In this document: piece after piece, positions 18,055-25,268 of the stretch
How positions within the stretch are numbered: the first letter of the stretch is position 1
How the letters are laid out: each line of letters starts with the position of its first letter
From: Candidatus Jordarchaeum sp. LHC_1308
GTDB taxonomy: Archaea; Asgardarchaeota; Jordiarchaeia; Jordiarchaeales; Freyrarchaeaceae
Reading direction: 5' to 3'
Assembly: GCA_019057675.1 (NCBI GenBank)
Contig: JAHLWX010000005.1
Coordinates: 1-43,637 of the forward strand
Length of the DNA: 43,637 nt
Made by a program: the position numbers and the translations under genes
The notes under the pieces: model-generated
Database searches by the model: none
Told to the model about the DNA's origin: nothing
Seen by the model: only the letters and a program-made list of their open reading frames with translations

Positions 18055-18139
18055 GTATTATGAAATTCAGTATTATGATGAAGCTGGTTGAGATTTCCCT
18101 GCTAAGTCATAATAACTTCATAGTAACTTACTTATTATG
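18055..18139 (+). promoter_or_regulatory. Repeated TATTATG motifs upstream of the KaiC gene
   Basis: GTATTATGA occurs at 18055-18063 and again at 18070-18078, 15 bases apart. A further inverted pair follows: CATAATAA at 18108-18115 and TTATTATG at 18132-18139. The spacing and proximity to the KaiC start suggest a repressor or activator site overlapping the promoter, though the region is AT-rich and chance repeats are possible. Confidence 0.4.
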
Positions 18140-18154
18140 TGGAGGTTTCGTTTT

Positions 18155-18874
18155 ATGGAAAGAGTTAAGACAGGGATTGAAGGGCTTGACAGGATTCTTG
18201 GCGGCGGAGTGCCTAGAGGCTCGAGTGTGCTGGTGACTGGCGGCACGGGCACGGGGAAGACGACGGTTTCAATGCAGTTCCTCATGGAGGGGCTACTGAA
18301 CGGTGAAGGTTGCCTTTTGGTGACGTGTGAGGAAGAGCCACATAGGCTCTACATGGAGATGAAGCAACTCGGATGGGACTTTGAGAAATTTGAGAAAGAG
18401 GGAAAACTTGTCGTGATAGATGCGGCAAGCACTAAGGCTGGCATGCCAACCACTACCACGTACAGGGACTTCCAGCCGAAAAGCGCCAACATAGACATGA
18501 ACCTGGTTGTGCTAATAGGCAGGGCGATAAGGGAGTACAACGTGAAGAGGGTTGTCCTCGACTCGGTGCCAGCCCTAGCCCTAAGAGTTGGGAAGCCAGA
18601 AGCCTTAAGGGAGTTATTGTTCAGGGTTTACTCCATGCTGGAACGGTTTGAGTGTACAAGCTTCGTCGTAACAGAGACACTGGAGGGAGAAGGCTCCCTC
18701 AGCAGGTATGGCGTGGAGGAGTTCCTCTCGAGCGGAGTAATAAAGGTCTCCCTACAGAAAGAGGGGGGCAAATGGATTAGGAAGATGCAAGTAGTAAAGA
18801 TGCGGGGGACAAGGCACGACCTCAACGAACACGTCTTCGAAATAACGGAGGGAGGAATAAAGCTCAAGGATTAA
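18155..18874 (+). CDS. Single-domain KaiC-family RecA-fold ATPase
   Basis: A 239-residue ATPase of the KaiC/RadA-like family. Walker A GGTGTGKTT is at 29-37, the CEEEP motif at 58-62 supplies the KaiC-type catalytic glutamates, and Walker B VVLDS is at 133-137. The GIEGLDRILGGGVPRGS opening is the standard KaiC start. It is half the size of two-domain KaiC and lacks an obvious phosphorylation motif. I start at ATG 18155 because GGAGGT is eight bases upstream; an in-frame ATG at 18137 lies before that site. It is followed 34 bases later by a two-domain homologue, so they are probably one transcript and may form mixed rings. Confidence 0.86.
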   Translation: MERVKTGIEGLDRILGGGVPRGSSVLVTGGTGTGKTTVSMQFLMEGLLNGEGCLLVTCEEEPHRLYMEMKQLGWDFEKFEKEGKLVVIDAASTKAGMPTTTTYRDFQPKSANIDMNLVVLIGRAIREYNVKRVVLDSVPALALRVGKPEALRELLFRVYSMLERFECTSFVVTETLEGEGSLSRYGVEEFLSSGVIKVSLQKEGGKWIRKMQVVKMRGTRHDLNEHVFEITEGGIKLKD

Positions 18875-18908: not shown

Positions 18909-20309
18909 ATGGAGACACAGGTAGATGCTGAGGAAACATTGAGGGAGAAGGAAGATGTTAAAAGCGGGATTGATGGCTTAGACGATGTCACCGGTGGAGG
19001 ACTTGATCCTGGAAGCGTTGTCCTCCTAATTGGCCCCCCTGGTTCTGGTAAAAGCATAATGTCAGCCCAGTTCATCTATAATGGCGCGGTAAACTACGGC
19101 GAGGCTGGACTATACGTGAACTTCAGTGAAAGTAGAAGTGACTTTCTAAGGAACATGGCGAAGCTGGGAATGGACTTTAAACGTATCGAAGAGGAGGGGC
19201 GTTTCAGGTTCATTGACGCCTACAACGTTTTCAACAGGATGAGCCTAGACCTCATAATGTCCCATATGCTGGACGAGCTCGCGTCTCTCGGAGTCAGAAG
19301 AATGGCGATAGATCACGTAAATGCTATTGCGGCAATAATGAATGACGATGAACTTAGAGGATTCATAGCTGCCACCATACTAAGCGTTTGTAAGGTCAGC
19401 AAGGTTACATGCGTGCTCGTCGGCAACCAGGCCCAAGGACTGGCAGATAACAAGCTAGCCGAGCTGGCTTTCATGTGTGACACGGTAATCAGGCTTGAAG
19501 CCAGAATGATGGGGGATGCTGTTGAAAGGTTTCTTATCATAGAGAAGGCAAGAGGAAGGAAACCTATTACTTCGAGGGCAGAGTACATTATAACTGATAG
19601 AGGGGTGAGGGTTTTCGCCCTTCCAACGAGGCATCCTGCAGAGGGAGGGTGGTTAAATGGGAAAGTTGGCGTAGGGCACCCGGAGTTCGACGAGAAGGTG
19701 TTGATGGGAGGTGTTAAGAGGGGGACTGTGACGCTTATCTGGGGGATGGGGGGAGCAGAGGAAAAGATTTTGCTAGTCGAGTTTGCAACTTCAGGAGTCC
19801 ACGGAGGGGAGAAGGTGCTCTATGTGACTTTTAGGGACCTGAAGAGTGTGAAGGAGTCTTTCAGAAGTCAGGGACACTATGTCGATGAGTTTGAGGGGAG
19901 AAAACTGAAATTTGTCGAGTTTTCACCTATCAAGGTTACCCCTGGAATAGTCTTGCTTGCGTTGAAGGAAGCTCTGGAAGACTTCCAGCCGAGCAGAGTG
20001 GCAGTAGAAGGGATAGCGGCGTTAAGGTGGATCCCAAGGGAGGATTATCATCGGCTGATAAACAAGATGGCGCTCCTCTTTAAGAGTTATGGTGTAACAG
20101 CGATGATGAGCTCTGGGAGTGGTATAAGCGTGAGGGAGACTGATGAGTTTAAGGTGGCTGACAACGTTATTTACATTTGGAGTGAAAGAAAGGAGGGGGG
20201 CAACGTCGTCAGAAAGGTTTCCACCATTAAAATGGATGGGGTTCATGATGAAAATGCGATGGAGCTCGTTTATGAAGAAAGGAGGATTAGGGTTTTTGAT
20301 ATTTACTAG
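18909..20309 (+). CDS. Two-domain KaiC-like ATPase with degenerate second domain
   Basis: A 466-residue tandem RecA-fold protein. Domain 1 (about 15-240) keeps Walker A GPPGSGKS (42-49), one acidic residue of the catalytic pair (FSES, 72-75) and Walker B RRMAID (130-135). Domain 2 (about 248-466) keeps the GHPEFDEKVLMGG opening, but its P-loop reads WGMGGAEEKI (279-287) without the GK[ST] core, the catalytic position reads TFRDL instead of EE, and Walker B ends in Glu not Asp (RVAVEG). Domain 2 is therefore probably a non-hydrolysing structural or regulatory partner. It is followed 19 bases later by the WNLALD-family gene. Confidence 0.85.
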   Translation: METQVDAEETLREKEDVKSGIDGLDDVTGGGLDPGSVVLLIGPPGSGKSIMSAQFIYNGAVNYGEAGLYVNFSESRSDFLRNMAKLGMDFKRIEEEGRFRFIDAYNVFNRMSLDLIMSHMLDELASLGVRRMAIDHVNAIAAIMNDDELRGFIAATILSVCKVSKVTCVLVGNQAQGLADNKLAELAFMCDTVIRLEARMMGDAVERFLIIEKARGRKPITSRAEYIITDRGVRVFALPTRHPAEGGWLNGKVGVGHPEFDEKVLMGGVKRGTVTLIWGMGGAEEKILLVEFATSGVHGGEKVLYVTFRDLKSVKESFRSQGHYVDEFEGRKLKFVEFSPIKVTPGIVLLALKEALEDFQPSRVAVEGIAALRWIPREDYHRLINKMALLFKSYGVTAMMSSGSGISVRETDEFKVADNVIYIWSERKEGGNVVRKVSTIKMDGVHDENAMELVYEERRIRVFDIY

Positions 20310-20395
20310 GTAGATGAGTGCGGGGGGGGTGAAGCTTTGTTTAGAGGGGGGTTGTAGTAGGTTTCGACTACAGGATTGGGCCAGTTGTCGAGGCA

Positions 20396-20953
20396 ATGTT
20401 TCCTGAGGGTGTTGTCCCGAGGGATTCCGTGTGGAACCTAGCTCTGGATGTTTGGATGAGCATATTTTCAAGGGAGATAACAGAGGACTCAAACCAGAAG
20501 GCTTACGGTGACTATGGAAGGCTTGCCGTAATTTCCTTCTGTGAGAATGGCGAAAACTATGCTCTTGTTGCCCTGTTCGATGATGACGATGGAGGGGTGG
20601 TCTGGCAGATCAAGGATGCGTTGAAGGAGGTTATGGATAGAGCGGTGGAAAAGCTTAAGAAGGGAGGTAGGAGCTTCGACGTCGCCCGAAGCGTTTACGA
20701 GGAGATAAATGGACTGGTCGCTGGGCCTAGAAGGTTTCCAGTCGAGGTATACGATGGCTTCAAGAGGATATATGACATGCTGGGGAAGGTCCTGAACGCC
20801 TTGAACGAAGTTAAAGATGAGGAAGTTAAGGGTAGACTGGTCGGCGTGGTCTCGGAGCTAGCGGACAGCATATCGGACCTCGCGCTCAACTTGGCCTTAA
20901 CTTGGGGGGATAGGAACATCATAAGTGCGATCCTCCGTAAGTCAGGGGGATAA
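20396..20953 (+). CDS. WNLALD-family protein A, frameshift in N-terminus
   Basis: The uninterrupted frame gives 185 residues and is clearly paralogous to the gene at 21605: MFPEGVVPRDSVWNLALDVWM here against IFPQGIVHEELLWNLALDMWM there. Homology continues upstream of the ATG at 20396 (VVVGFDYRIGPVVEA against VMLLKFDYALGPLVEK) but no start codon exists in that frame and a TAG lies at 20342. A GTG at 20329 (GTGAAGCTTTGTTTA) would join it if one G were removed from the G6 run at 20346-20351. So the gene is either frameshifted, slips during expression, or begins internally. The predicted fold is strand pair, helix, three strands, helix, then a helical C-terminus, resembling a longin-like layout. 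It follows the KaiC genes. Confidence 0.7.
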   Translation: MFPEGVVPRDSVWNLALDVWMSIFSREITEDSNQKAYGDYGRLAVISFCENGENYALVALFDDDDGGVVWQIKDALKEVMDRAVEKLKKGGRSFDVARSVYEEINGLVAGPRRFPVEVYDGFKRIYDMLGKVLNALNEVKDEEVKGRLVGVVSELADSISDLALNLALTWGDRNIISAILRKSGG

Positions 20954-21013
20954 AGGCTAAAAGGGGGGAGGACGCTGCGCCCATCGGAGCTTCAATGCTT
21001 CCAGAGGAAGGTT

Positions 21014-21490
21014 GTGCTGAGAGATGGTTCAAGGGTTTTGATCAGGGCTTTGACGCCGGCGGACGCGGCCAAGCTGCTGAGGTTCTACAGTTCCTTGTCG
21101 ACTGAGACGAGTTACCTGCGCTTCCTCAACTATAGGCCTTCTTCGAGCTGGGTGCTGGAGGGGCTTGCCAACGTCAACTTCGAGGACAACGTTGCTCTTG
21201 GAGCCTTCACCGAGGAGGAAGAGTTGATAGGTGACGCGAGGTTCTCACTTGACAGGAAGACGGGGAGGGCTGAGATAGGCATAGTGGTTGCGGATGAGTG
21301 GCAGGGGAGAGGGTTAGGGCTGAACATGATCCAAACGCTGGGCTACATAGCTTTGATGATGGGTGTTAAGACGCTCTACGCCACGGTCTCCCCGGTCAAC
21401 TACCTTGTGGCTGCAGCCTTGAAGAGTGCAGGCTTCAGGAGGGTTAGAACCGAGATATTAGAGGAAAGGATATTTGAGGCGGATCTCTAA
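21014..21490 (+). CDS. GNAT-family N-acetyltransferase
   Basis: A 158-residue Gcn5-related acetyltransferase. It has the acetyl-CoA loop VADEWQGRGLGLNMIQTLGYIA (VADEW, then QGRGLG) and a late TLYATVSPVNYLVAAALKSAGFRRV segment. The early LRDGSRVLIRALTPADAAKLLRFYSSLS pattern resembles the GNAT domain of protein-lysine acyltransferases linked to acyl-CoA synthetase. GTG start; the same frame remains open upstream without a start codon. It sits between two paralogous genes of the KaiC region, so it may modify a member of that module, but that is inference. Confidence 0.85.
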   Translation: MLRDGSRVLIRALTPADAAKLLRFYSSLSTETSYLRFLNYRPSSSWVLEGLANVNFEDNVALGAFTEEEELIGDARFSLDRKTGRAEIGIVVADEWQGRGLGLNMIQTLGYIALMMGVKTLYATVSPVNYLVAAALKSAGFRRVRTEILEERIFEADL

Positions 21491-21604: not shown

Positions 21605-22249
21605 TTGAGTTCAGGTGTCGAGGTGAGGTTTCAGGTTCAGTGTCGGGGGGTTATGCTCCTCAAGTTCGATTACGCTTTAGGACCACTAGTGGAAAAAATT
21701 TTCCCTCAGGGCATCGTGCATGAGGAGTTACTGTGGAACTTGGCTCTTGACATGTGGATGACCATGGGGTCTAGAAGCATGGAGAGGGGGTACAGCACTA
21801 TAGTTTTCCTCAGAGATATTGGGATGTTCACCTGCCTAGTCTCAGGAGGCCAAAGCGAAGCGCCATACGCGATGGCGGCTTTCTTTGACCCAGAAGGTAT
21901 AAATGGGTTCTGGGGAATTAAAGATAAGGTGATTAACATTCTACTTGAATACATCGAAAAAGTTCAGAGGGGTGAGGACGCCGAAAAAGTGGTTAGGGAA
22001 GTGTATGACTCGATAGTTAAAGTCACTTTGAGCCCGGTGAAGGCGGGAGTTTCTGGCGATTTCCTGTATGAAACGGCGAGTTTCATCGTTAAGCTGGCGT
22101 CCCATGTTCAAATGACAGGTAAATGGAGCGATGAACTGAGGGCTCTCCTGAAAAACTATGTTGAGCGTCTTGCAGAAGAAGCAGGCAGAACGAGTTCAGG
22201 TGAAGCTCTTAAAGAGATCCTCAAGTTAAAGCCTATCCCAGAGGCATAA
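21605..22249 (+). CDS. WNLALD-family protein B
   Basis: A 214-residue paralogue of the gene at 20396. Shared core: FDYxxGPxVExxFPxG, WNLALDxWM, then strands around YSTIVFLRD and YAMAAFFDPEG, a WGIKDK helix start, and a helical C-terminus ending in KEILKLKPIPEA. I do not recognise a named family. The alternation of strands and helices is compatible with a longin/roadblock-type domain followed by a helical tail. Start TTG 21605 is chosen with a GAGTTTAAAG element at about 21563; ATG 21653 after a GGGGGGTT is an alternative. No cysteine, membrane or signal motif. Confidence 0.65.
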   Translation: MSSGVEVRFQVQCRGVMLLKFDYALGPLVEKIFPQGIVHEELLWNLALDMWMTMGSRSMERGYSTIVFLRDIGMFTCLVSGGQSEAPYAMAAFFDPEGINGFWGIKDKVINILLEYIEKVQRGEDAEKVVREVYDSIVKVTLSPVKAGVSGDFLYETASFIVKLASHVQMTGKWSDELRALLKNYVERLAEEAGRTSSGEALKEILKLKPIPEA

Positions 22250-22488
22250 AAACGAGAAAGTAATAATAAAATTTTACAATTTTAGGTTTTTCTCAGCGGA
22301 GCGTTTATGGCATTTCTATGAATTGCTTCATATTTCCATCCTTGTTCAATTTAATTTAACTGATCTGTTTAGAAATTATATTTTTTATTACGATTATTGC
22401 GATATCTTTTACATTGAAATCCTCTTTCCAAAAAACTTATATTGATATGGAATTCATAAAGAATTACAGGAACCGCGCGGGGATTAAG
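22250..22488. other. AT-rich intergenic region before longin-like gene
   Basis: About 240 AT-rich bases with no credible coding frame. A TATA-like AACTTATATTG at 22435-22444 would start transcription near 22465, which supports the ATG at 22489 as the start of the next gene rather than TTG 22414 or ATG 22447. Confidence 0.4.
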
Positions 22489-22977
22489 ATGATACATAAT
22501 GTTTACATTATGAGGAAGAGTGGCGAGTGTTTGATAAGCCGAAAGTACGGCAGTCTCGAGGCGGATGACGACCTCGTCACAGGGTTTCTCAGCGCCATAC
22601 TCAACTTCGGCGAGCAGATCGACGGGGAGCGAGTCGAAAGCATAGTAATGGGTAATAAGAAGTTCGTCTACACTAGTATTGACGACTTAATATTCATAGC
22701 CTATGCGGACAAGGACGACCTAGTTAAGGAAAGCCTAGAGCACATAGGGCAGAGATTCATGGAAAAATACGGCGAAGCGCTCAGAGACTGGAGAGGAGAT
22801 AAAAGCATGTTCGAAGATTTTATGAACGTCATGGATACGATACTGGGCGAAAAAGGCGGAGGCGAAGACCTAAAAGCGGACGATGTAATTGAGAAGCTAA
22901 AGAAAGGCGTGATATCAGCAACAGAGGCGTCACAGCAGCTCGTTGATTTCTTCCTCAAAAAAGTCAAAGGAAAGTAA
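22489..22977 (+). CDS. Longin-like domain protein
   Basis: A 162-residue protein. The N-terminal 100 residues (MIHNVYIMRKSGECLISRKY, then LVTGFLSAILNFGEQI, VMGNKKFVYTSIDDLIFIAYAD and a long helix) follow the longin-domain order of strand-turn-strand, helix, three strands, helix. The opening resembles the small chains and medium-chain N-termini of eukaryotic AP complexes (IYNHKGEVLISRVYR). The C-terminal part is helical and charged, ending in QQLVDFFLKKVKGK. Longin domains act as protein platforms for GTPases in eukaryotes. The TATA position favours this start. Longin identity is by pattern only. Confidence 0.68.
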   Translation: MIHNVYIMRKSGECLISRKYGSLEADDDLVTGFLSAILNFGEQIDGERVESIVMGNKKFVYTSIDDLIFIAYADKDDLVKESLEHIGQRFMEKYGEALRDWRGDKSMFEDFMNVMDTILGEKGGGEDLKADDVIEKLKKGVISATEASQQLVDFFLKKVKGK

Positions 22978-24398: not shown

Positions 24399-25268
24399 CT
24401 AGTAGAACTCCCTATCTGGAGGGTGAAACAACTTGAAGTATGAGAGGGGCTGCCTTGACAGCTTCACGACTTGGCGGGCAAGCTTCTTGATCGGTTTCTT
24501 GGAGTGGGAGAGGTATGGAAGAATAGAGCGTGTTCCCTTCACCTTAACGATATATGCAAGGGCATTTATCGCGGCAGCTCTCAAGCGGAGGTTGTCTGAG
24601 AAGAGCGCCAGCTTCATGAGGGGTTTAACCGTCGTCTCATTTCCGGTACGGGCCGCTAATCCCAAGTGCTCCAGCGTGAAGTCTCCTTTCTCCAATGCCG
24701 AAGATATTACGTCGTTCACTCTTTCATCTCCGAGATCTACGAGGGCCATTAGTGCTGCTGTGGAAAGTTGCCGGTTTTCTGAAACTCTCTGGAAGAAGCT
24801 CCACACTAAGTTTACCGCCTTCTCGTCTCTCAGCACGCCGAGAACCACACATGCCTGAGCCTTAACGCTATCCGGAAGCTCATCGAAAATGCTTCTAATT
24901 TTCTCGGCTACTGGTAGGCCTTTCTCCAAGCCGAGCTTCCCAAGGGCTACCAGCAGGTCGCCGCTAATCTTCTCGTATGCTGGTTCCTTCATCAATGAGA
25001 GGAGCTTGTCCTGTGCTTCACCGTTCTTAGCGAGCTCTGCGAGCTTGGATACCGCCTCGAGCCTAGCGAGGCCTCCAGCCTCAGGAATCAGGGGGAGGAG
25101 CTCGTCTATGGAAGACGCCTTCGAAATAGATGATATGAGGGATCCCTCACCTCTTTCGGGAGGCTTGAGTGCTAGAGTGGCCTCCAGCTCCGACTTAAAC
25201 CATGGAAGAAGAAGACCCCTTAAAGCCACGTAGGGGCTTATGTATAACAGTGACCCGCCGGCATCCAC
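24399..25268 (-). CDS. HEAT-repeat protein
   Basis: A 289-residue helical-repeat protein. Units of 30-35 residues with ALxxLGDxxxxx-type turns (LVALGKLGLEKG, VVLGVLRDEKAV, MALVDLGDERVND, NALAYIVKVKG) indicate HEAT/PBS-lyase-like repeats, used as a protein-binding scaffold. GTG start. It lies 53 bases before the crotonase gene and about 90 bases after the HTH-ferredoxin gene on the same strand, so the three may be co-transcribed. No partner is evident from sequence. Confidence 0.78.
   Translation of the reverse strand: MDAGGSLLYISPYVALRGLLLPWFKSELEATLALKPPERGEGSLISSISKASSIDELLPLIPEAGGLARLEAVSKLAELAKNGEAQDKLLSLMKEPAYEKISGDLLVALGKLGLEKGLPVAEKIRSIFDELPDSVKAQACVVLGVLRDEKAVNLVWSFFQRVSENRQLSTAALMALVDLGDERVNDVISSALEKGDFTLEHLGLAARTGNETTVKPLMKLALFSDNLRLRAAAINALAYIVKVKGTRSILPYLSHSKKPIKKLARQVVKLSRQPLSYFKLFHPPDREFY

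Follow-up and report, generated by a model that had tools for sequence, protein, structure and literature searches.

Why does a gene with a well-conserved body lack a usable start in its own reading frame? The question is raised by a longin-domain gene, here called gene A, in the draft genome of Candidatus Jordarchaeum sp. LHC_1308 (GCA_019057675.1; 1.90 Mb in 120 contigs, 84% complete). The window analysed is a stretch of 43,637 nucleotides of contig 5 (JAHLWX010000005.1, forward strand). It was compared with three genomes of the same genus (G001, G002 and G003), and gene A itself with its orthologues in G001 (79% identity) and G003 (66% identity). Gene A lies on the plus strand downstream of two KaiC-family genes, a KaiC-family ATPase at 18137–18874 (plus strand; Pfam KaiC PF06745, E 1.2e-70) and, directly 5' of gene A, a double KaiC-type ATPase at 18909–20309 (plus strand; Pfam KaiC in two stretches, E 8.3e-65); the latter also neighbours the gene A orthologue in G003. 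On its 3' side follow a GNAT acetyltransferase gene (20975–21490, plus strand, from CTG 20975, with GTG 21014 further inside), paralogue B (21605–22249, plus strand), which belongs to the same longin family and has an intact frame in the window, and an open reading frame at 22474–22977.

As written, the body of gene A, in the frame homologous to its relatives and including the stop, occupies 20345–20953 on the plus strand (AGG GGG GTT GTA GTA GGT TTC GAC ...), with an open frame up to the stop at 20951–20953. An in-frame TAG at 20342–20344 stands just before it, and no ATG, GTG or TTG occurs in this frame between that TAG and ATG 20396. Most of what the initial annotation reported here was found again: the run of six Gs (G6) at 20346–20351 is present, a stop precedes the first canonical in-frame start, and homology to the paralogue reaches upstream of that start (FDYRIGPVVEA, compared with FDYALGPLVEK in paralogue B). 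A GTG at 20329 does lie in another frame, which runs for 26 codons to TGA 20404–20406, and removal of one G joins it to gene A. The frame break is truly present in the sequence as given, and its explanation is ordinary. The earlier proposal that an indel at G6 broke the frame is supported in that part; its specific form, a start at GTG 20329 with a surplus G, is not.

The evidence for the start comes from the orthologues, both of which have a single open frame from a TTG through the whole gene. The region reads GTGAAGC TTG TTT AGA GGC GTG ATC GTG GTG AGC TTT GAT in G001, GTG AAC TTG TTT AGA GGA GTG GTT GTT GTG AGC TTT GAC in G003, and GTGAAGCT TTG TTT AGA GGG GGG TT GTA GTA GGT TTC GAC in the window, with TTGTTTAGAGG identical across all three. 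TTG TTT AGA GG(N), which is the reading conserved among them, falls in a third frame, neither that of GTG 20329 nor that of the gene A body. In the window this start region (20337–20357, plus strand) reads TTG TTT AGA GGG GGG TTG TAG, and thus gives MFRG as in the orthologues before the TAG. Ahead of it is a Shine-Dalgarno-like G8TGA (20322–20332, plus strand), which includes GTG 20329 and ends 4 nt before TTG 20337; its counterparts ahead of the TTG are GGGGGGGTGA in G001 and GGAGGAGTGA in G003. The distance from GTG to TTG drifts from 6 nt in G003 to 7 nt in G001 and 8 nt in the window. G8TGA would presumably pair with the anti-Shine-Dalgarno, and the native start of gene A looks to be TTG 20337 behind this G-rich element, with the nearby GTG a part of the element.

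The sign of the indel could be read from this region as well. After TTG 20337 the window is one base shorter than both G001 and G003 in the DNA alignment, and when the proteins of G001 and of G003 were aligned to the window with frameshifts allowed, each alignment set a codon of 2 nt at 20350. In seven of 11 homologues the Phe-Asp codons follow a start codon (TTG, ATG or GTG) at a distance of exactly 27 nt, as against 26 nt for TTG 20337; in the remaining four (three B-type and one divergent) the start is 60 nt before these codons. Taken together, these observations indicate that the window lacks one base 3' of TTG 20337, the site of the break being the G6 run (20346–20351, plus strand), where G001 has GGCGTG and G003 has GGAGTG. 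The idea of one G too many was thus not borne out, and the refuting result proposed with it, reads with five Gs, points the wrong way. Of the ten other family members in the alignment, nine have Val at residue 5 and one has Thr; Gly occurs in none, which speaks for loss of a T rather than of a G. On the simplest reading, an ancestral GGG GTG GTT (Gly-Val-Val) would have lost its T, and the two short G runs of GGGGTGG would have fused into G6.

These comparisons also bear on the GTG 20329 model, which we regard as extremely improbable. A GTG start with one surplus G in the run joins the frames mechanically, and in G003 the GTG lies upstream in the frame of the gene, but the equivalent frame in G001 reads GTG AAG CTT GTT TAG and so meets a TAG after four codons, leaving the proposed N-terminus VKLCLEGVVVGFDYR unsupported. 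The resulting VKLCLEG is unlike the family N-terminus (MFRG or MLKG), GTG 20329 would abut the G run that would serve as its Shine-Dalgarno, leaving no spacer, and the frameshift-aware alignment calls a deletion rather than an insertion.

On its predicted structure, the product of gene A is an Asgard longin-domain protein of roughly 205 residues. The AlphaFold2 model of the G001 orthologue (pLDDT 78.9) contains the elements E4-11, E15-22, H29-44, E54-57, E62-69 and E74-82, then helices, and so shows the longin alpha/beta arrangement of a strand hairpin, a helix, three strands and helices; strands 4-11 and 15-22 form the first hairpin of the modelled domain. The best match to residues 1-130 of the model is the longin domain of PDB 8YQG, a roadblock-longin protein from Lokiarchaeota, with Z 15.1 and an rmsd of 2.2 Å over 125 residues (8YQG_A). 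Foldseek also gives 8YQG as the top match (E 9.4e-4), and further structural matches are to Lst4 (Z 12.2) and then to subunits of the C9orf72, GATOR1 and FLCN complexes. As for differences from 8YQG and the eukaryotic longins (Lst4, GATOR1, FLCN, C9orf72/SMCR8), the gene A protein has no roadblock domain, and it carries an extra helical C-terminal part (residues ~133-207) that the longin matches barely cover. Sequence identity to these longin domains is about 10%; the 185-aa ORF matched no Pfam family at E up to 1, Pfam gave only weak non-longin matches for paralogue B, and a profile search of PDB sequences gave 53 weak matches, none of them named longin. The modelled fold suggests that the gene A protein may help to control small GTPases. 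Distant relatives of the gene A family were seen in two Baldrarchaeota genomes, at loci of roughly 3 kb (L014, G034 C300; L015, G027 C9), with ORFs for Rab-like small GTPases and a TrmB-like regulator nearby, all named by inspection. These two loci are possibly a longin-GTPase neighbourhood.

The model shows what a start at ATG 20396 (20396–20398, plus strand) would cost. This is the first canonical in-frame start and has a short GAGG just 5' of it, and the protein of this species could in principle be an N-terminally trimmed form of 185 aa. ATG 20396 is residue 21, however, and is probably an internal Met codon; the position is Met in G001 and Thr (ACG) in G003. The codons 5' of it encode residues that agree with those of the orthologues, and those for FDYRIGPVVEA (20363–20395, plus strand) encode the hairpin that links strands 1 and 2, and the larger part of strand 2. 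The family alignment has ten invariant columns, with F10, D11, G15, P16 and E19 within 20363–20395 and G4 further upstream, so a product begun at ATG 20396 would lack the whole of strand 1, almost the whole of strand 2 and six of the ten. The lost strands and invariant columns, together with the ACG in G003, make the 185-aa ORF unlikely as a natural protein; the evidence for translation from this codon is poor, and we consider it highly unlikely. The peptide stretch FDYRIGPVVEAMFPEG would not be expected if ATG 20396 were the start.

With the start at TTG 20337, one base would be missing within the first six codons and translation would end at TAG 20355 after six codons, so that the gene as written would have no normal product. 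The cause is very probably an ordinary one-base deletion in the region of the fifth codon, through recent mutation or consensus error. Both causes, the first on the list in the initial annotation, were kept as candidates, and the pattern expected of either was found, namely intact orthologues and a length difference of one base. A recent real deletion in the lineage or population has close to an even chance, and a consensus error in this draft, metagenome-derived genome is a substantial possibility; the two are about equal, and neither needs a programmed mechanism. Purifying selection acts on the body of gene A (dN/dS 0.12 with G001 and 0.11 with G003). Residue changes number 12 specific to the window and nine specific to G001, a balance that by eye is no more lopsided than in four control genes, and no excess damage was found in the gene A body on the window branch. 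Purifying selection without such an excess indicates that the lesion is young or not real.

Surveys for other frame breaks bear on the quality of the assembly. In the window, 39 stretches aligned to G003 proteins (11,063 aa) contained one convincing internal break, that of gene A. A second survey covered four 20-kb stretches (80 kb) of four other contigs, with 80 alignments and 21,997 aa, a figure to which a few rRNA and antisense ORFs contribute. Over both surveys, about 33,000 aligned residues of this genome, gene A has the only convincing frame break. The raw frame changes in the window were four with G003 proteins, four with G001 and one with G002, the gene A break being reported with G003 and with G001 proteins alike. 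Seven other changes in the window were dropped: six lie at the ends of genes or ahead of their starts, and the one at 21880 reflects G001's own break in paralogue B. Eight on the other contigs were also dropped: two in archaeal 23S rRNA, three antisense (opposite the ORF L059:16430-17983) and three at gene starts (one of them in L061). An error-prone assembly as a general state was rejected, as the survey held no convincing second break. One break in about 33,000 residues thus means that the assembly is not obviously error-prone, which weakens the artefact half of the preferred reading, and the lack of further decay in gene A weakens the pseudogene half. A single break in an undecayed gene is also expected of a gene rescued by recoding.

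The break resembles the single-base indels of metagenome-assembled genomes, and small indels occur in this genus, three of them within 24 kb of G001. In contrast to G001 with its several indels, the stretches sampled from the window's genome have only the gene A break. In G001, paralogue B is off-frame twice (L017, G001 contig 4, at about G001:C4:22594 and 22359), through one additional G in the corresponding Arg-Gly-Val site, also a G run (G7 compared with G6), and through an extra base in a CTTTTT stretch. A HEAT-repeat-like gene of G001, named by inspection, has a two-base insertion relative to the window, G002 and G003 (L016, G001:C4, about 19035); in the window this gene lies at 24402–25268 on the minus strand. 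G or C runs of six or more number 32 in the window, and since such runs are frequent, a shared hotspot is the modest reading of the coincidence between gene A and paralogue B of G001.

Recoding would leave the sequence correct and the protein still made, through a -1 ribosomal shift or through addition of a G in G6 by RNA polymerase. In the ribosomal version, translation would start at TTG 20337 and Gly-tRNA would slip on GGG from 20349–51 to 20348–50; P-site GGG can re-pair perfectly one base back, and a -1 shift from the TTG frame would restore the protein. The body of gene A is conserved, and a hairpin begins 9 nt after G6 (-13.7 kcal/mol, z -3.0, with three of 500 dinucleotide shuffles equally good) that is the most stable behind any of the 32 G6+ runs in the window. 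Against this, the orthologues in G001 and G003 need no shift, so the break is not conserved, and the hairpin is absent in G003 and weaker in G001. Among synonymous versions of the same peptide, 697 of 2000 fold as stably, so that the hairpin looks unremarkable for the encoded peptide, and 2.9% of 4,753 coding 39-nt windows are as stable. By inspection, A-GGG-GGG is a poor tandem heptamer with a mismatch, and no Rfam family matches 20200–20700. An archaeal precedent by analogy is the alpha-fucosidase gene fucA of S. solfataricus, which carries a frameshift only in certain strains, where -1 frameshifting rescues it (PMC8211752). As there described, fucA resembles gene A in having the break in some strains with full-length relatives, and in a homopolymer run followed by a stem-loop; it differs in having an A-rich heptamer and experimental proof, whereas the case of gene A is one of sequence, with G6 and a stem-loop unremarkable for its peptide. 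Recoding at this site is on balance very unlikely. There is equally little expectation of its regulatory form, a longin-family regulator made solely via a -1 shift, ribosomal or transcriptional, at codons 4-5 in G6, with recoding setting the amount and with paralogue B perhaps switched likewise or by run-length (phase) variation. A recoded product would contain MFRG-x-VVVGFDYR and FDYRIGPVVEAMFPEGVVPR peptides.

Stop-codon reassignment was also considered and rejected: readthrough of TAG 20342 would give no start codon after TGA 20330, and it would bypass the conserved TTGTTTAGAGG frame. One report gives selenocysteine recoding, and not pyrrolysine, for Jordarchaeia (PMC9723677). A limited literature search (Asgard longin, roadblock and frameshift; archaeal KaiC-longin) did not find the gene A frameshift in print.

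The ordinary one-base deletion is mainly of cautionary value. Gene-calling software would annotate a product of 185 aa without its first two strands, and the key motif F-D..-G-P..E would vanish from the annotation of a eukaryote-like Asgard longin protein. The conserved start here is a TTG behind a G-rich Shine-Dalgarno, and picking the nearest upstream GTG leads to the wrong sign of the indel. If the shift were real and the gene rescued, it would be a rare instance of archaeal frameshifting in a regulator-like gene.

Several further features of the neighbourhood were observed. In the GNAT gene, the window has CTG at 20975 (within 20975–21016) in place of the TTG at which the gene starts in G001 and in G003, 13 codons ahead of GTG 21014, and a Shine-Dalgarno-like G run is retained; either the CTG is used as a start or the start was lost via one transition. 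In the second KaiC domain of 18909–20309, the P-loop at 19737–19770 reads GMGGAEEK, compared with GPGGVGKS in G003, the Walker A Gly-Lys-Ser having gone by substitutions without a frameshift, while the first domain retains GPPGSGKS. The ORF at 22474–22977 has a weak match to the clathrin-adaptor small chain (E 0.017, below the cut-off). Its beginning, YIMRKSGECLISRKYG, is similar to that of a 670-aa open frame in the same genome (L060 12718-14727, minus strand), FYVFKRSGNPVFHKSYG, and this longer frame is perhaps a longin fusion.
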